A program made the translations under genes and the position numbers. Shown in pieces: positions 35,823 to 47,190 of a stretch of 64,000 nucleotides of DNA. The DNA is from Bryopsis sp. KO-2023 (taxonomy: Eukaryota; Chlorophyta; Ulvophyceae; Bryopsidales; Bryopsidaceae), in the NCBI GenBank assembly GCA_030272585.1, contig BSYQ01000005.1:4495501-4559500 (forward strand), in the 5' to 3' direction. Numbering within the stretch: the first letter of the stretch is position 1; the number at the start of each line of letters is the position of its first letter. The notes under the pieces were generated by a model, which worked only from the letters and a program-made list of their open reading frames with translations, ran no database searches and was not told the DNA's origin.

Positions 35823-35904
35823 TTTAACCTCTCAACGAGGAACGATCGGATAAGGAACGAGGAATCACAGAGAGACGTCACGCTCAACTTTCCAAACTGG
35901 GACC

Positions 35905-38884
35905 ATGGCTAACAGAAACCTCGGACATAAAGTGAAACGATACGAGGAAGAGAAGTTCGATCGAAACAGACGCAACGACCGCCAGAAATCGTCGAACGGC
36001 GATGGTCGGTGCAGAGGTTTGAAACACCGTGTTGGGACGGTTGAAAGGAACATGAACGAACTCCTTAAAGGACAGAAAACGTTACTGGAACAGTTGAGCG
36101 AGATCGTGAAAGAGTCGCGACGTCTGACAGATGCTGCGAAAAGTGTGAAACGCAGAGATCAACAAACGACGGTGGGACGAGCTTCTCGTAGGACTGGCAG
36201 ACGCCAGGCGAGGAAGTTACACCAGTCGGAACGGTCAGAAAACAAAAGCGCGAGCTCTGGAACGGAGAGTGACGATGGTGTGACGGACGTCACAGGCGTC
36301 AGGTCAAGGAAAATGCATGTCGAGCATGCAGAGGACGATGCGGCGTCCACAAATGCGGGTGCGCTCGATGATCGACCTGAGGGGCAGATTAAGGCGAAGG
36401 CGAGTCCATGCGCCATGATGCCTCAGGAACGGGTTGGCGTGCATCAGGCCCGTGATCATCAGTCGGAATCAGGGGTGATTTCGAGAAATCCAGGGAGGGA
36501 TTTCAAAGGAAGCGATGACGATGATGAAGCGTCGCAGAGCGCAGGAGCATCGTGTGACGGAAAGGAGCCGACAGCGGTGGATCTAAGGGTGACCGGAGTG
36601 GGATCCAAGACATCGCTGCTGAAATTACACGGCTCGCTGGGCCATGCAGCAGTACGAGTTCTGGTCGATAGCGGAGCGTCGACAGAATTCATTTCAGAAC
36701 GGTTGGTAAAACGGTTGGGATTAAACATCGATGCATTCGAAAAGCATCGACCTGTGACATTAGCAGATGATTCGGTCGCGAATGTCGTCGGATCATGCAC
36801 GACGACGATTCGATTTGGACCATATCGAGTTCGAAGAAAATTTTTGGTCCTGGCTGAATTGGTGCATGATGTTATCTTTGGGAAAAGTTGGTTGTCAGAT
36901 GTGAACCCTAAAATCGACTGGGTATCACACAAACTGAAAATCTGTCGTCCTGGAAAGAAGGATTTGGAATTACAGGGGTACTATGGCGATGATGCTGGAG
37001 GTGGCAACAGTGCGCGGAACCTAAATCTGATTTCGGCAAAACAAATGTCGAAGATCATGCGCAGAGGTCGCGATGAGGTGTTTTCGCTGTGGATTCATGA
37101 TGTCGGAGATGATGATGATTCGGAGGATTTCATGGAGTGGAAAAATTCAGAGGAATGTGGGGGCATAAGAACTGGAGGAGAATTGAGAATGGCTGAACTG
37201 CTGAATGAGAAGTCGATTGCTGAAAGACAAGACAAGTCGAAAGGAACTGCAACTCACAAAAAGGAAGCTACAGAACTGGAAACGGAACTGAACACAGAAA
37301 TCGGGAAATCGGGAAGGACTGAGAGAGTGAACCAAAGGAAGGAATCGAACACAGACCACACTGGATCAACAAATAAACTGGGGAAAAGAATTGATGGACC
37401 AAGTGGAACTCAAGCAAATTCTATCACGAACGTTGAGACTCCTGACCAAGCTAAGGCAAATCAAATAAAGGAGGAACCAATGGGAGTGCCCAAACATGGA
37501 AGTGTGAATGTGGATTCGAAACTGGAACACATGATCGAAAAACTGCCCAAGGAACTGGAAAAACTCAAGGCAGTGCTTCGTCGTCATGCAGATCGGTTTC
37601 CGGAGGATTTACCGACGAAGCTTCCACCCCACAGAAAATTCGACTTTGAGATAAACGAACAGGAAGGGGCGCAGCCGGTTTCTCGACCGATATACCGGTT
37701 AAGCCCGGTCGAACTCAGAGAACTCAGGAAACAACTCGACTACCTTCTCCACCACGGCATGGTCCGTCCCTCACACAGTCCATACGGAGCTCCCGTCCTG
37801 TTCGCACCAAAAGCAGATGGGACTCTCCGTTTTTGCATCGACTACAGGATGCTTAACAAACAAACACTCCGCTCGAAATATTCGCTCCCACGAATGGACG
37901 AAATGGTGGACCAAGTGGAAGGAGCGCGCTGGTTCACGAAAATAGACTTAAGGAGCGGTTACTGGCAGGTCCGCATCAAGAACGAACACATCCACAAGTC
38001 GGCGTTCCGAACTCGGTACGGCCACTTTGAATGGCTAGTGATGCCGTTCGGGTTCGCTGACGCGCCAGCCTATTTTATGCGGCTGATGAACGACACCCTC
38101 CGCCCCTATCTGGATAACTTCGTTCTCGTGTTCCTGGACGATGTGTTAATTTTCAGTAAGGATGCCGACTCGCACGCCGACCACGTGCGTTTGGTGCTGG
38201 AAAGGCTGGAAGAACAAGGTCTGTATGCGAAGTGCAGTAAATGCGAGTTCGGAAAAAGCGGCGTCGAGTTTCTGGGAACGTGGCTGGAACGGGATGGAAC
38301 TTACCCCACGGCGGAGAAGATTAAGTCGATAACAGAATGGCCGACGCCGAAGTCTGTACACGACGTTCGCAGTTTTTTAGGACTGTGTTCGTTTTACCGA
38401 AGGTTCGTCAGGAACTTTTCGGTGCTCGCTGCCCCTTTGACGAATCTGACGAAAAAACACAATGGTTGGAATTGGGGACGGCTAGAGCGGCAGGCTTTCG
38501 AGTCTCTAAAAACGGCTATGACAACGACGCCAGTGCTGAAGCACTTCGACGACGAACTTCCTGTGGTGGTGGCGACCGATGCCTCGCAAGCGGGGATCGG
38601 TGGTGTTCTAATGCAGCGGACAGAAAAAGGATTACACCCTGTGTGTTTCGAGTCGCACAAGTTCACGGAGGCAGAACAGAACTATCCTGTTCACGAGCAG
38701 GAGCTCCTTGCGATTGTGCACTGCCTTAAGAAATGGCGCACATATCTGGAGGGGCGGCACTTCGTTTTGCGAACTGATAATGCGAGTTTGGTGTGGCTGG
38801 ATACGCAGAAGGGATTGACGCGACGACAGGTGCGATGGACGCAGTTCCTAGCACCGTTCGACTTCGACACTGTGCACATAAAAG
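35905..38884 (+). CDS. Chromovirus polyprotein, first part: protease, reverse transcriptase, RNase H
   Basis: One frame runs from a start 95 bp after the LTR to the hAT insertion. The first 240 or so residues are basic and partly coiled-coil (NMNELLKGQKTLLEQ) and lack a visible CCHC zinc knuckle, which is unusual for Gag. Next is a retropepsin (VLVDSGASTEFIS, about residue 252), then a 200-residue charged, low-complexity linker. Reverse transcriptase follows (FCIDYRMLNKQT; catalytic FLDDVLIFS near residue 745), then RNase H with ATDASQAGIGG near 893. The frame is open to the break at 38884. It resumes at 44873 in the same phase once the insertion and one target duplication are discounted, so the polyprotein is otherwise intact. 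It reads to a stop at 38892 within the transposon. Confidence 0.95.
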
Positions 38885-38911
38885 CATACTAGGGATCCGA
38901 TGCCGACATGT

Positions 38912-39200
38912 CGGTCATCGATCAAACCGATCTCCGATCAAGATCGGTCCCTGCAGTTTCCGATCAAGCCGATCACCGATAAGATCGGTCCGATCAGACC
39001 GATCGCCGATCAAAATCGGACCGATCAAAAAAAAACGGTCCGACTTTTCCGATCAAAATCGGCCGATCACCCAGTTCTGCCTCGGAAACCAGATCGGATC
39101 GGGATCGGGATCGGCGGTTTCCGATCAGATCGGAAATTGACCGATCTGATCGGCGCGTCGCCGATCATGATCGGCGACGCATTATCACTCGACAACGATC
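38912..39200. repeat. Left subterminal GATC-type repeats of hAT
   Basis: Over twenty copies of CGATC/GATCG-containing words (CCGATCA, AGATCGG and variants) in both orientations. The layout mirrors the right end, as expected for transposase-binding sites. Confidence 0.8.
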
Positions 39201-39282
39201 AAATCGCTGGTCCGGCTACCGATTCCCCTGATCGGCACCACATCAAAGCCCGTGGCGTCGGATTATCCGTGTTTCCGTGAAC

Positions 39283-41922
39283 ATGAGAGGCAACAGGAGA
39301 AAGACGAAACCGCGAGCGCAACCGCGAGCGCTGCACCGTATCTTACCTCCCGTCGAGCTGTCCGGGGATGACTTGCGAGGCGAACCGAACGCAGTTCAGC
39401 CGACGCCACACCGCTGGAGCTCTGATTCTGTGAACCCAAAGGGGGTTGCACGCGGAGGGGGAAGAGGATCTGGAACTGGAACGGAAACAGGAGGAGCAGG
39501 AACACGATCTGGAACAGAAACCGGTGAGTGTGGCAAATTTGCTGTGCAGTGAACTCATCAGATGTGATTGTCTTGGTGGGGCACTCTTGGGGTGTTGGTG
39601 TTTCCTTGCATCTGCCTCCAGGTAGGGACATGTCACCTGTGGGCTTTGATATGCTTCAGAAGATATGGCCTTGGGCCTCATGCTGGTTGTCTTGTAGTGG
39701 ATCTCACATTCCAAACATCAGCTCGGACGCAGGCACAGAACCAGAAACGGACCGGAATCCACACTTGGGTGGACTCCATGTATGTACAGAACAGTGCAGG
39801 AGAAATGGAGCGATTTGTGGATGAATGGAACAGGAAAGTAGTGACCTGTAGGATATGCAGGAGTCAGTTGGTCTACAGCAAGGGAGGCCGCACCTCGTTG
39901 TTGACCCATGCTAAGAGGCATGGTCTCACCACCCCGGAGCAGATGCAGATCGCTGTCCACAACGGATTTGTGGGACATCATCAGGAGCAGGGGGGGGAAC
40001 GGATCGTTTCGTTCGGAAACCAGAGAACGTTGCCTTTCGTGTCTAGATGGGGCTGCCTGACCAAAGAGTACAAAAACTTCCGGGATCATGTCATGAAATT
40101 CGTGGTCAGCACCGGTGCAGCTTTCAGGTGTGTGGAGGACAAACATTTCAGAGCCATGTGCTCCTCCCTTAATGCATCTGCACCTTGTCTGAGTGCAAAG
40201 ACCATCTCCACCAACGTTGGGCTTTCAGCGAAACGGCTCAGCAAAAGGATCCGAGAAGAGGACCTCGGAAAATTCAGACCCTGCTTCGTTGCAGATGGCT
40301 GGTCGCAGGAACCGAAGCACTGGTTTGCCATGGGAGCTGTTTATATCCACCGGGACGCTGAACAGGATCTGTTTGAACTGAAGCGGATCAGCTTGGGAAC
40401 CTGGGACCTGAAGGGAAATTGTGATGCTGAGGACATCAAAAAAAAAATGGCAGAAATTCGGGATCGGTACAACCTGGGCGATTACCGGGCAAGCATTGTC
40501 ACAGATCATGAATCAAGAATGGGTGCGGCCTGTGAACGCAAAGGTGAATACGACTGGCACGGATGCTGCACTCACCGGATCAATCTCGGAGTCAGAAAAG
40601 CCCTGAACCAGGCACCTGAGCCGTTGGAATTCCTGATCAAGAAGGTCCGTCAGATCTGTGTCCGTGTCATGGGATCTGCCAACCTGTGGGAAAGTTTCAA
40701 GACAATCCAAGAAGCGCGCATATACAAGGAAGATTATGACCGGGACCGGGCTGCAGCGGATGCGGATATGCAGAGCCAGGCCAGCCGGAACCAGGTTGGC
40801 AGTCAGAACCAGAGTCAGAATCGAAGTCAGGCTGGCACCTCCGACCAGAATCAGGATCAGAACCAGGCTGAGGAGGAGGGGCCCTTCCCCATGTACTCCT
40901 CTGATGAGGAGGAATGTCCTGATGATGACTGGTTGATGGAGGAAACAGAAGACTGCCCTGGACCAGTCAGGAGATCGCAGCGGATCCTGAGATTGACCCT
41001 GCCCGTTGAAACCAGGTGGAACTCTGTGTGGTACATGCTGCATCGGTTCCTGATCCTGAAGGAGGATATGCGTAAAATGCTGCAGACCATGTCTGAAGAG
41101 GATCGGTTGACAGAATTGGAATGGATACAACTCCGGCACCTGCATTCGATCTTACAGCCATACAAGGAAGCTACCAAGCGCATGGAGGCTGAAAAAACGG
41201 TCACCTGTTCGCTGGTTCTGATGGTCATGGCCCGGGTCAGTGACATCATCGACAAAATGGATTTACCCTGTCAGGACTTGGATCAGTTCAGAAAGCAGCT
41301 CAGAAGCAATATGGATGAGGAATTCGATGATCCAAACTGGCTCCTGGCCGTCGGATGCATGCAACAACTGGATCCGTCACGTTTGCGATTGGATGATCCT
41401 GTTATCACTCGGTATCTGTGGGGATCGGACCAGTTCCATGAATTCAAATCTCGGTGGTCTCGGTGCGATCTGTGGGTGAATGATGTGCTAGAGGAGTGCA
41501 ACAAGCTCATAATGTGCATCAAAGAGAGACCGGATCAGGAGGCAGGAGCAGATGCATGCGGCACCTTCAGAGGACCAGAAAAAAGCCCGGTGCATTCCAC
41601 GTATGACTGGCTCACAGTTGTCCATCCATCAGGGGATCCAACCGATTCAGGAACAGATGAGTGGGAACGGTACTGTGCAGTGAGGGCAACCCCCCTCACA
41701 TCTGTACTGACTTCAGGTCTGGAGTGGTGGCGGTTAAATCAGGCTCTGTACCCAGCTGTAGCAGTTCTGGCAGCCGAGTATTTGTGCATACCAGCGTCCA
41801 GTGCATCTGTGGAACGGATGTTCAGTATTAACGGGCATCAGTTGAATAAGCGCAGGAGGCGGATTCAGGTTTCCAAGGTGCGGGATCTGACACTGATACG
41901 GGACAATCTGGATATGATTTAG
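39283..41922 (+). CDS. hAT transposase, two exons, apparently intact
   Basis: Exon 39283-39523 (donor G/GTGAGT) joins 39698-41922 (acceptor TTGTAG) in phase, giving 821 residues. An in-frame alternative acceptor is at 39721. The order is: basic Gly/Thr-rich N-terminus; BED-type zinc finger (CRICRSQ, then LLTHAKRH); RNase H-like core with the first acidic segment FVADGWSQ; then IVTDHESRMGA and CCTHRINLGVRKAL. A Gln/Asn-rich insert (SQNQSQNRSQ) and ETRWNSVWYML follow. The C-terminal dimerisation region has IPASSASVERMFSINGHQL, the signature end of hAT transposases. No frame break was seen. It should cut and paste this element using the 12-bp ends. Confidence 0.93.
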
Positions 41923-41980
41923 TGTGGTTCCCTTCTTTTTTTCTGCAACCTGGATCTGAATCTGTTTCTGATGCAAATTG

Positions 41981-42290
41981 GATCTGTTCCAGATTCCATG
42001 GTTTGGCAGGGGTTTTTGTGGAGGGGTCAGTCTTGGTTTTTCCGTTTTTTAACAGGCAGTTTTTTAACATGCAACCTGGATCTGTTCCAGATTCCATGGT
42101 TTGGCAGGGGTTTTTGTGGAGGGGTCAGTCTTGGTTTTTCCGTTTTTTAACAGGCAGTTTTTTAACATGCAACCTGGATCTGTTCCAGATTCCATGGTTT
42201 GGCAGGGGTTTTTGTGGAGGGGTCAGTCTTGGTTTTTCCGTTTTTTAACAGGCAGTTTTTCAACATGCAACCTGGATCTGTTCCAGTTTT
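41981..42290 (+). repeat. 98-bp tandem repeat inside hAT
   Basis: A 98-bp unit beginning GATCTGTTCCAGATTCCATG starts at 41981, 42079, 42177 and, truncated, 42275. It lies just after the transposase stop, between the two convergent hAT genes. Confidence 0.9.
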
Positions 42291-42603
42291 CCGTAGTCTC
42301 CCTCGGGGTGAACATCATCCACAAACGGTTTTACATTTCACTGAGTCCGGAAACCGTTCATCATCATCCACTGAGTCACTGATCCACTGAGTCCTGATCC
42401 TGATCCCAATACTGCTTCCTGAAAACTCGATATCCTCCACCAGAGCAGTGTACCATTTCGTTCTTTCATCCACATCCACTCAGTCATCACAAATCATCAC
42501 ATTCCTACCCAGCAAAGCTGATCCTGATCCTGCTCCTCTACAAAATCGATTTCTCCCACCAGTGCACCATTCCATTGTCAAACTCTGGACAATCATCACA
42601 TTC

Positions 42604-44225
42604 CTACCCTTCAAACCCACCCCCATGGTGCTGCTGATCCTGGTCCTGCTCCTGCTCCTCTACAACATCGATTTCTTCCACCAGTGCATCATTCCATTCT
42701 CTAACGCTGAACACTGTGCCCGAGTTCCCTGAATGACGCCTGAAACCGTCCAACCCCCCTCTTCCGGTTCTCCTGTAAACTTTAGTGTCTGATATGACAA
42801 TGCCATGGATATATAATGCTTCCTTTATTCTGTGGAGAATCCACGAGTTTTCCAGGGCCACGTTTTGGAGGAACTGTACCAGGTGGACCATCGACCGGAA
42901 GCTGATGGGGAATTGGATTTTATAATCTCCGTTGAAGGTGTACCTGGTCCTGAGCTCCATGTCCTCCAACCGCAGCTGAACCCGCTCCTCATCCGATAAT
43001 TGGATCTGGTCCTGTTGTACTGGGCACCTTCTGGGCACGGCTCTACCGCGCTGATCCGTTTGACAGGAGAAGCCATCAAAATCTCTCGGGAACGGGGTTT
43101 CTACTGGGTACCTCTGGGGCTCACTCTGGTCCTGCCTGTGTGCGTGCATCTGGGCCCGCATCTGTTCAAAGTTAGGTTGGGGACCCCTGCCACCACTTCT
43201 GAGAGGTTCGTTTCCGAATCCTGATCCAGGCCTTGATCCTGACCCAAGTCCTGACCCCGATCCAAACCCTGATCCAAACCCCGATCCATATCCTGAATCT
43301 GGGTACTCTCCATCTTCATATTCCGCACAGGATCCACGCCCTGGTTGAGGTCGGAACTCCCCAATCAGCTCCACTTCGCTGTCATCGTCTCCCCAGTGTT
43401 CCACAGGCTCCACCTTGATGAATGAGCCAGGTCCTGATGGGGCCGGTTCATACGATGCTGCTGGTGGTGCCATTCCTGACCCTGATCCAACCGGTGGTGC
43501 TGCTGCTGGCGCTGAGGATCCTGATCCAGATGGCATGGGTGGTGCTGCTGGTGGTGCTGCTGGTGCTGGTGCTGGTGCTGGTGCTGGTGCTGGTGCTGGT
43601 GGTAATGGAATCGAGAAGTCTGCAGCAATCTGATCCGAGATTACTATCATATTCTGGACCTCAACTTCTAGCTGAGCCAGGTTCTGTTCCAGGCAATATC
43701 CTGTGAGCACTCCTGCTCCATACACAACAACTTGTTACCCTAACAGGAAAAAAACAATAAAACAACCGCAGCATCAGATATTCAACTGATTTAACTCACC
43801 TGTTTTAACCGATATCACCCGATGCGTATCCGAAGCCAGGTTCTGGTAACCCTCTCTCACGATTCCGGGTGGGCCTTGCTCCAGGTACACCAGCAAACGG
43901 TCCACGAGTCTGGGCAGGTACGGGTCGTTGTCCATCGCAGCTTGCAGATAACCGGATCCGAGAGTACTGCAAACCTTCAGGAACGGAACCTACACAACCA
44001 AGCAAACAAGAAATCTGTTTCCGGACAGACACCAACAGCAGCACCAACAGAAACCGCGACAACGATACTTACCCGTTCCAATCCGAAAAACCGACGCAGG
44101 GACCGGACGCAGCCATAGATTCTCTGCCGCGCGTCGGCAGGTTCTTTTCCCACCGCGGGAGGAATCGCGCCACCGAGGCTGTTAAGCTCCCGGGCGTACC
44201 GAATAGCAGGGAACGCGTCGACCAT
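42604..44225 (-). CDS. Second gene of the hAT element, unknown function, three exons
   Basis: Minus-strand exons 44073-44225, 43800-43989 and 42604-43730 join in phase to 1470 nt (489 residues), with GTAAGT and GTGAGT donors. The first 115 residues look globular and helical (QRIYGCVRSLRRFFGLER, YLPRLVDRLLVYLEQG). A low-complexity centre follows, with an (AP)n run encoded by a GGTGCT repeat, plus Gly/Ser and Asp/Glu stretches and GSGFGSGFGSGSG. The last 120 residues again look folded (MELRTRYTFNGDYKIQFPIS, NVALENSWILHRIKEALYIHG). I recognise no family. Its place wholly inside the terminal repeats, with intact frame and introns, makes it a resident gene of the transposon, perhaps an accessory protein or captured host gene. 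Confidence 0.75.
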
Positions 44226-44516
44226 TTCAGAAACCGAGAGAAAAAAAACAGGACCTGGGGTAAAGGGACCGAAACCGGGACAAAAACAGGGACCGAAACA
44301 GGGACCGCAATATGCAAACAGAGACAAGTCCAAGCATAACACGAGAAAAGAAGGTGGCCCAAACGCCTCGAGGCTCGACATATATTGGAGGCAGTTTTGC
44401 GCTGGACGTCACATCTGAGTCATCGGTGTGTCAGTGAACACGGGTAGTCGGATCGCAAGTCGGCATCAGACCCACACAACCGATTTTGAATGATGTGACC
44501 GACATTGCGCCTTTCA

Positions 44517-44760
44517 CACCGATCATGATCGGCACACCCCGATCACTGCACCGATCAAAGAAAACACGCCGACTTTGATCGGCCGACTATTCCGATCACA
44601 GCTCCACGCCTTGATCGGATCGGGATCGTGATCGGCCGACGCCGTTCTTTGATCGGATCGGTCGCCGATCCCGATTAATCGGTCCGATCATAACACCGAT
44701 CACCGATGATCGACGCCGATCATGATCGGTTTTGAAAAAAAAAAAAAAAACCGACTTTTT
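44517..44760. repeat. Right subterminal GATC-type repeats of hAT
   Basis: Dense CCGATC/GATCGG words in both orientations, the mirror of the left end. Confidence 0.8.
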
Positions 44761-44872
44761 TTGTATCACTCCAAAACACACGTTCGTGAAAACCAGAGTC
44801 CGATCCGACCCCGTTTAGACCTGTTTACAGCAGGCCGATTATTACCTATCATATCCCTAGTATGCATAAAAG

Positions 44873-47190
44873 GGACGGACAACGTTGTGGCCGACGCCTT
44901 GAGTAGGTGTCCTCAACCCAACAGGAGTTCTGGATTGAGTTCAGGAGGGGATGAGGAGTCGTCAGCCCAACAGAAGTCGTCAGGCAAAGTAATTGAGCTG
45001 TGGACAGATGAATGTGTCGATCGGAAAGTTGCAGGAACAACGAACAGACAAATGCTGAAGGAGTATAAGACAAATGACCACCAAGGAAATCAAGCTGACA
45101 AAGGACAACAGAACCAGAAATTAATGGAACAGGAGGGGGAACTTGGTTCTCTCCAAACACCCAACAGAGAACAAGAACAGAATGGCAACCAAACTGAACA
45201 AGGGAGTCTGATTGAGAAGCAAACTGGGGATATGCTATCACAGACTGAAATAAACAAACTGCTGGAAACATCTGGTGCTGGAGATAGCACAGGTGTAAGG
45301 AAGCCTTCGGGGCTACCACTGGAGCAAAAGAACAAAGGAAGTGGAGGGGAAGAGGAAGAAAACACCCCTGGCACAGGCAAACCAGTAGAGACTGGAATTT
45401 CGACTGATGAGTTGAATGAAGGTCCAGTGGCAGCTCTAAAACCACCTAAGAGTGAGGGAAAGTCCAAGAAAGAAGTGAGGATTAATCCACAAGCAACTGA
45501 GTTGAAATGTTGGTCTTCTGGAGAGGAATCTGAAGGGATCCCTGAGAAGTTAAGACCACTTGGACAGCGACTGGTAAATGATGCAGACAGTTGCAGAATG
45601 GAGGCAAACATGGCACAGAATCAAACTATGGATGGAGGAGCCCCATCCCTGAATGTGTTGACAAGAAGTCAAGTGGAACAAGTGAAGATACCAAGAGAAA
45701 AGATCAGAACTGAGCAAGGAAAGGATGGATATTGCATCAACATCAAGGACCTACTGGAAAAACAGGATGCTAATGTCATCAAGCAATTCAAGTTACAGGA
45801 GGGAATCATCATGAAGCTGACTGGACAGTTAGTCATACCCACATCCATCAGGCAGGATGTTCTGAAAGAGGCACATGACTCAGCGATTTCAGGACATAAA
45901 GGCAGAGAGAGGACCCTTGATTTAATCAAGAGGTACTTCTATTGGAGGAGACTAGATAAAGATGTGGCTGATTACTGTAGAACTTGTCCAGAATGTCAGA
46001 AATCAAAGGCAGAGGCGAAGCTTCCAGCAGGGAAGCTCCAGCCACTTCCGATACCGGAACGACGTTGGGAATCGGTCAGTCTCGACTTGATCGTGCAGCT
46101 TCCGGAAACAGAGCGAAGACATTCGGCGATAGTGGTGTTCATCGACAGATTAAGCAAAATGACGCACTTCATACCGACGTCGACGAGCGCGTCTGCCAGG
46201 GATTTGGCAGACATATTCTTCAGAGAAGTGTGGCGACACCACGGGATGCCAACGAGTTTGGTGTCGGACCGCGACAGTCGTTTCGTCTCGGCATTCTGGC
46301 GACGACTAATGGAGCTGAGTGGGACGTCACTGAAGATGAGCTCGGCGTTTCACCCGCAGACCGACGGCCAAACAGAACGAATGAACAGGGTGCTGGAAGA
46401 GACGTTAAGATGCTATGTCGACGCTCGACGACGCGATTGGGACGAGAGGCTACCTGCCGCCGAATTCGCGTATAACAATGGGAAGCATACGTCGACTGGC
46501 CACACGCCGTTTTATTTGAACTCGGGGGAGCATCCATTGGTACCGATGGCGCTTATCGGAGGTCGACGCGTCGAGAGCGAGATTCGTGGCGTGCACGACA
46601 TTCTGTCGAATATGCGCAGTGACTTGGAATTGGCGAAACAACTGTGGAAACAAGCTCAGGAGAGGCAACGGAAGTACGCCGACAAGTCGCGACGTGAAGA
46701 GAACTTCGCGGTCGGGGATCGAGTTTTGCTGACGACCCAGAATCTGTCATTTGCTGGCAGCGGGATTTCGCCGAAGCTCGGACCACGTTTCGTGGGGCCG
46801 TTTGAAGTGGTCGCAAGGGTCGGACAGGTTGCGTATAAGCTGAAGTTGCCGGAGACGTGGAAGATTCACGACGTATTCCACGTGGTGAGATTGCGGAGAT
46901 TTAAAGAGTCGTCAGAGTTTCGACGACCTGAACCAGAGCCGCCTGCACCTGTGGTTAATGAAGAAGAACTCGAGTATGAGGTCGAAAGAGTGTTGGACCA
47001 CAAGGAGGTGAAACGCGGACGATCTGTGACGAGAAGATATCTGATTCGCTGGGTCGGCTATGGGATCGAACACGATTCCTGGGAGCCGTGGAAGCACTTG
47101 GTTAACGCGTCAGAAAGGGTGGCGGCATACCACCAACTGGTCGGAATCCAGCCTACGAAGGAAGAAGCTACCCTTCGGGGGCGGACGTGA
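44873..47190 (+). CDS. Chromovirus polyprotein, second part: integrase and chromodomain
   Basis: This continues the interrupted polyprotein in phase; without the hAT and one target duplication the two parts total 1765 residues. It opens with the RNase H/integrase junction (NVVADALSRCPQ), then a 250-residue Gln/Glu/Lys-rich spacer. The integrase HHCC zinc finger follows (HDSAISGHKGRERTL, YCRTCPECQKSK). The catalytic core has SLDLIVQLP, VSDRDSRFVSAFW and the Glu in QTDGQTERMNRVLEET. The C-terminal part has FVGPFEVV and a chromodomain (YEVERVLDHKEV, YLIRWVGYG, DSWEPWKHL), which steers chromovirus integration to modified chromatin. The stop is at 47188-47190. The present mRNA would have to cross the hAT, so this copy cannot make the full protein. 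Confidence 0.95.

Follow-up and report, generated by a model that had tools for sequence, protein, structure and literature searches.

A conserved second gene opposite the transposase in five hAT transposon families of Bryopsis

Results

A hAT element with two convergent genes

We analysed a stretch of 64,000 nucleotides from contig BSYQ01000005.1 of Bryopsis sp. KO-2023 (hereafter the window), which holds a complete hAT element bounded by terminal inverted repeats (TIRs) and a target-site duplication (TSD) (Table 1). The original prediction, that a second spliced gene lies inside a hAT transposon opposite its transposase, was borne out: between 12-bp TIRs flanked by an 8-bp TSD, three exons on the minus strand join in one frame. 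The element is inserted inside a chromodomain Ty3/gypsy pol frame, and on reading the sequence the two halves of pol were seen to continue in matching frames around the TSD.

Table 1. Features of the hAT element and of its insertion site (positions in the window).
Feature	Position	Strand	Basis or remark
Ty3/gypsy pol, left part: protease, reverse transcriptase, RNase H matches	35854-38884		Pfam
Left TSD, 8 bp, CATAAAAG	38877..38884
Complete hAT element, 5980 bp, two convergent genes	38885..44864	+	TIRs and TSD
Left TIR, 12 bp, CATACTAGGGAT	38885..38896	+
Left subterminal CCGATC/GATCGG cluster, 23 per 500 bp	38885..39384
hAT transposase, 714 aa from first in-frame ATG	39778..41922	+	Pfam Dimer_Tnp_hAT
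Noncoding tandem array, 98-bp unit x 3.1, between both stop codons	41979..42286
Second gene, exon 3 including stop codon	42604..43712	-
Conserved C-terminal region (DFDG ... QFPI ... LQNV ... LHR ... EAL)	42607..43119	-	alignment
GGRGPQPNF, single copy in window of GGRGPPPN-like motif	43168..43194	-
Second gene, intron 2 (GTGAGT..GCAG), 87 bp	43713..43799	-	without counterpart in A2 (L033)
Second gene, exon 2	43800..43989	-
Second gene, intron 1 (GTAAGT..GTAG)	43990..44072	-
Second gene, exon 1 (ends FGLER, phase 0)	44073..44225	-
Right subterminal CCGATC/GATCGG cluster, 17 per 500 bp	44365..44864
Right TIR, complement of CATACTAGGGAT	44853..44864	-
Right TSD, 8 bp, CATAAAAG	44865..44872
Ty3/gypsy pol, right part: integrase, chromodomain matches	44865-47190		Pfam

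The assignment of the transposase to hAT rests on its Dimer_Tnp_hAT domain (54.9 bits, Pfam cut-off 21.4), a C-terminal domain detected in all six transposases that were aligned. Invariant across these six are D173, D243 and E679, which we take to be the hAT catalytic D, D and E residues, and an N-terminal CxxC and HxxxH (Pfam zf-BED, 14.9 bits, under the cut-off of 20.6). Two close relatives at about 41% identity, P0001 and P0002, were found in the protein database; their source tag 'lgn' presumably denotes Logan assemblies. The transposase frame is open from 39568, upstream of the first in-frame ATG at 39778, and an additional upstream exon is possible. Further upstream, an open frame at 39232-39552 with GTGAGT near its end could be the first exon of the transposase.

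Genome searches covered the same 91-Mb genome as the window (91,088,769 bases in 28 contigs). One of these contigs, C1, starts with CCCTAAA repeats; CCCTAAA triplets number 4288 forward and 5184 reverse genome-wide, against 2 and 4 for the control.

Gene model and protein

The three exons predicted to join in phase do so, although into 483 codons and not the 489 originally given. The difference lies in the intron-2 acceptor: 43731 yields 489 aa, and the homologues back 43713 (GCAG|GA), which yields 483 aa. We prefer the latter because a relative of the element, A2 (L033), has no intron at this junction and reads through it (ISVKT-GILQECGL vs ISVKT-GVLTGYCL), and because the acceptors of the further families B, C, D and E described below lie at the place matching 43713. 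Among 22 aligned loci of the window's own family (family A), intron 2 reads GTGAGT..GAGCAG in all 22, and intron 1 starts with GTAAGT in 12 and GTAACT in 10. Both the reading frame and the GT..AG ends are kept in 21 of the 22. The simplest explanation for the exact loss of an intron is a spliced transcript, and the missing intron 2 of A2 is hence indirect evidence, from one such loss, that the second gene is transcribed and spliced.

The second protein falls into three parts. Its N-terminal part looks helical, a disordered linker rich in Pro and Gly bears GGRGPPPN-like motifs, and the C-terminal region is conserved. The predicted Ala-Pro and Gly-Ser centre was confirmed, and what all families share there is the GGRGPPPN-like motif, which the prediction had not named. 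Every family examined has it in 1 to 9 copies (A 1, A2 1, B 3, C 9 or 6, D 6, E 4). Exon 3 lengths among family-A copies differ by multiples of 6 (at 43562-43605 in the window), fitting a putative hexanucleotide (Pro-Ala) microsatellite; in-frame exon 3 lengths are therefore by themselves no evidence for selection.

Searches for relatives bore out the prediction of an unknown family. In the protein database no homologue of the second protein was found among the 7993 candidates sharing most words, a set in which repetitive words probably dominated, and the C-terminal part of the family D protein gave none among 69 candidates. A profile of the C-terminal region matched no PDB sequence up to E 10. 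Pfam returned nothing above cut-offs (best sub-threshold TFB6, E 0.018, in one of 8 members), including no DNA- or RNA-binding domain, no Myb and no TET/JBP dioxygenase match. Viral contigs held no relative of either the second gene or the transposase. Descent of the second protein from the transposase was considered and rejected (profile comparison probability 0.2%). Structure prediction for the C-terminal part, run on the window's sequence by itself, reached a mean pLDDT of 38, too low for use.

Intact copies and a short form

The whole second gene, all 1622 bases, is matched at 22 places in the genome with 97-100% identity; fragments and one relative at 72-73% were recovered in the same search. 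For the frame alignment we used the window and L010-L030, leaving aside L031, L032 and L033, and found a single broken frame, with the frame intact at 21 of the 22 loci, the window included. Among the loci left aside, L031 has internal stops in the second gene, and L032 has one internal stop in a second gene that is present and split by an insertion. A count of TSDs across 27 of 29 loci gave identical 8-bp duplications in 16 of 16 copies having both exact TIRs. None of these 16 two-ended, TSD-flanked copies is a full-length element lacking the second gene, all 16 coming from loci that carry it.

Across the genome the exact TIR was counted 141 times (control 2), and pairing within 60 kb, applied to 100 of the 141 sites, gave at least 34 pairs. 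Among the pairs listed, the second gene is present in all 9 of 5.8-6.5 kb, absent from 15 of 1.05-1.08 kb, and present in 5 and absent from 5 of the 10 with other lengths; the latter 5 have no transposase among the matches listed. The short form of 1.05-1.08 kb (for example C1:6152892-6153957 and C3:18606-19671) retains the left 250 bp (94%) and the right 367 bp (89-90%) of family A, and is a non-autonomous derivative with neither gene. At L010, near a second TIR, a short-form end directly adjoins a full-length copy at its left end; the arrangement may reflect a nested insertion or one alongside.

The second gene in four further hAT families

While the prediction of the gene in one hAT element held, its scope proved wider. 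Four further hAT families, with transposases 67% (B), 54% (C), 54% (D) and 56% (E) identical to that of A, have a homologous gene at the equivalent convergent position, making five families in all. By protein search, the second-protein homologues across the genome are 33-45% identical. Transposase copies and second genes were both selected by hand from the genome search matches, and for 67 of the 73 transposase copies a second gene lies 579-1397 bp away in tail-to-tail orientation on the other strand (A 18/20, B 8/8, C 30/32, D 10/12, E 1/1). The pairing omits 5 of the 63 rows of the first transposase search, four of which end short of the 3' end and one of which (C12:3100466-3101365) does reach it and lies 590 bp from a second gene by coordinates. 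It also omits ten rows new in the other transposase search that fail to reach the 3' end, and retains one row, C11:488362-490218, that stops short of it. Three of the six unpaired copies have a candidate second gene at 6.5, 8.0 and 10.8 kb, and C10:231741 has second-gene fragments nearby, outside the hand-picked list. The two without any candidate are C9:4136265, with no right TIR among those listed, and C2:8794661, which has an internal stop. Related TIRs, CATACTATGGAT, bound family C, two copies of which have their own 8-bp TSDs; by script no TSD turned up at six further loci, several of them incomplete.

Gene structure is shared as well. Intron 1 comes immediately after FGLE and one further residue in A, A2, B, C and E (the donor in E is GC, and its exon 2 start is tentative), exon 1 of family D lying beyond the locus sequence; intron 2 is positioned alike in families A to E. 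Conserved in exon 1 are YAR.LN..GG and FGLE (A, A2 and B, more weakly in C), in exon 2 PPG[IL], and at the start of exon 3 a leucine-rich stretch. The C-terminal region has 28 invariant positions across 8 sequences, among which two pairs are nearly alike.

Selection was estimated as dN/dS by the Nei-Gojobori method with Jukes-Cantor correction. For the whole second gene the ratio was 0.34 between A and B (p 6.8e-17, dS 1.83) and 0.40 between A and A2 (dN 0.24, dS 0.59, p 3.7e-13), with 0.30 in the C-terminal region of the latter pair, the A2 values being single ratios that need care; between A and C, pN was 0.53 and pS 0.76, with dS saturated (p 4.0e-13). The transposase gave 0.21 for A vs B and 0.26 for C vs D. 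Amino acid identity between A and B is 42% in the C-terminal region of the second protein and 67% in the transposase. Judged by these substitution ratios, the second gene is under purifying selection between diverged families. Within family A the departure from neutrality was not significant for either gene (26 nonsynonymous against 14 synonymous changes in the second gene, with pN/pS 0.59 and p 0.13; 14 against 7 in the transposase, with pN/pS 0.55 and p 0.19). Such a lack of significant constraint is expected of young copies, yet it lends no support to selection, and neutrality is contradicted by the diverged pairs and not by the copies within the family.

The relative A2 (L033 4044-9501) is a mosaic. 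Its transposase is at dS 0.165 to A (ratio 0.58), and dS of its second gene to A runs 0.59, 0.28 and 1.09 along the length. This unevenness shows that recombination between families has happened, and suggests an exchange of gene modules between hAT families.

Noncoding repeats at the ends and between the genes

In three complete elements CCGATC/GATCGG occurs 17-24 times per terminal 500 bp (40-45 at both ends together) and 5 times in the remaining 5.0-5.2 kb; mononucleotide shuffles of the ends gave means of 0.2-0.3 and maxima up to 4. A tandem array separates the two genes in A, A2, B, C, D and E; its unit measures 27 to 99 bp. The 98-bp unit of family A is repeated 2.1, 3.1, 4.1 and 5.1 times in four copies; the other arrays are 83 bp x 7.0 (A2), 62 bp x 8.2 and 78 bp x 5.8 (B), 99 bp x 2.9 and 50 bp x 2-3 (C), 27 bp x 4.3 (D) and 66 bp x 5.8 (E). 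A common GATC-type motif in the central arrays was sought and rejected as inconsistent (family C, 1 vs 1.9 expected). GATC exceeds expectation in coding parts as well.

Discussion

In summary, the second gene almost certainly belongs to this hAT lineage as a dedicated component, and is neither a passenger nor a chance frame. That the open frame and its splice sites arose by chance might be imagined from the repetitive, low-complexity centre, and is scarcely credible given dN/dS below 1 (p down to 1e-17), protein similarity between families and shared intron positions. Capture of a host gene, which the original prediction had also entertained, is a process known from transposons. As an account of this gene it is very improbable: the gene is present in five families whose transposases are 54-67% identical, it is under purifying selection, no homologue was found, and among the genome matches inspected no host gene, nor any copy outside these elements, was recognised. 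Because diverged families have kept the gene, it probably helps the element to spread rather than riding along.

As to how, we lean somewhat towards a trans-acting accessory factor that works on the element's own noncoding DNA. Such an accessory nucleoprotein factor would act in the nucleus, binding either the terminal CCGATC/GATCGG clusters or the intergenic tandem array, and would assist the transposase or keep the element expressed. As the short form retains the family-A ends, the ends appear to be the target acted on in trans. A fuller version, in which an orphan family of GGRGPPPN-repeat proteins and the transposase jointly move or de-silence the element through its GATCGG-rich ends and central array, obligatorily and lineage-wide, is offered tentatively. 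The repeats could instead serve the transposase alone.

The leading specific rival to an accessory factor, which we consider rather unlikely, is an anti-silencing protein like VANC of the Arabidopsis VANDAL elements, which would bind its own repeats and keep them unmethylated. It would fit the presence, in each family examined, of an intergenic tandem array with a family-specific unit, whose copy number varies within family A, as VANC targets too are often tandem repeats, variable between related elements, according to the available text of PMC5735166. It would also fit the faster evolution of the second gene than of the transposase between A and B. Against it, the second protein showed no sequence relation to a known family in the searches above, arrays also arise without function, and the shared GATC-type array motif failed. 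An element-encoded repressor or copy-number regulator would be equally element-encoded, convergent and conserved, and nothing separates it from a positive factor on those grounds; we nevertheless think it improbable, since a self-repressor selected in 21 of 22 copies is harder to explain, though host protection could account for it. An accessory factor acting in trans remains our preferred reading.

Looking forward, hAT elements are used for gene transfer and studied as models, on the view that one protein suffices. A hAT lineage that has long kept a second protein would imply that in some hosts a transposase is not enough, either for transposition or for escaping silencing. Having no recognised relative, the second protein may hold a new mode of nucleic-acid binding or anti-silencing. 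The near-identical intact copies, together with the short non-autonomous form, make its role testable.

TnpA of En/Spm (CACTA) and mudrB of MuDR are likewise second element-encoded proteins, and TnpA binds subterminal repeats; unlike the gene described here they belong to other superfamilies, sequence comparison having been made through Pfam only. In PIF/Harbinger elements ORF1 is Myb-like and the TSD is 3 bp. Here, by contrast, the transposase is of the hAT type and the second protein has no Myb match in Pfam. PIF/Harbinger requires both ORF1 and TPase, as the accessible part of PMC2836001 describes, and resembles the present system in having two element-encoded proteins and short non-autonomous derivatives that share its ends. 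The likeness to VANC of VANDAL, as far as the consulted portion of PMC5735166 extends, is an element-encoded non-transposase protein combined with variable noncoding tandem repeats; VANDAL is Mutator-like, whereas the transposase here is hAT, and the second protein, compared via Pfam families, matched none that is named.

The sole precedent for a second gene in a hAT element that we found in the open-licence literature is in the hAT7 elements of Puccinia rust fungi, for which the excerpt available of PMC12730594 reports a TET/JBP dioxygenase as the second gene, a 7-bp TSD and passive exchange of the TET/JBP gene between transposon lineages. The element described here differs in its 8-bp TSD and in a second protein without a known domain. 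The two are alike, within that excerpt (PMC12730594), in enclosing a transposase and a second gene within one TIR- and TSD-bounded hAT element.
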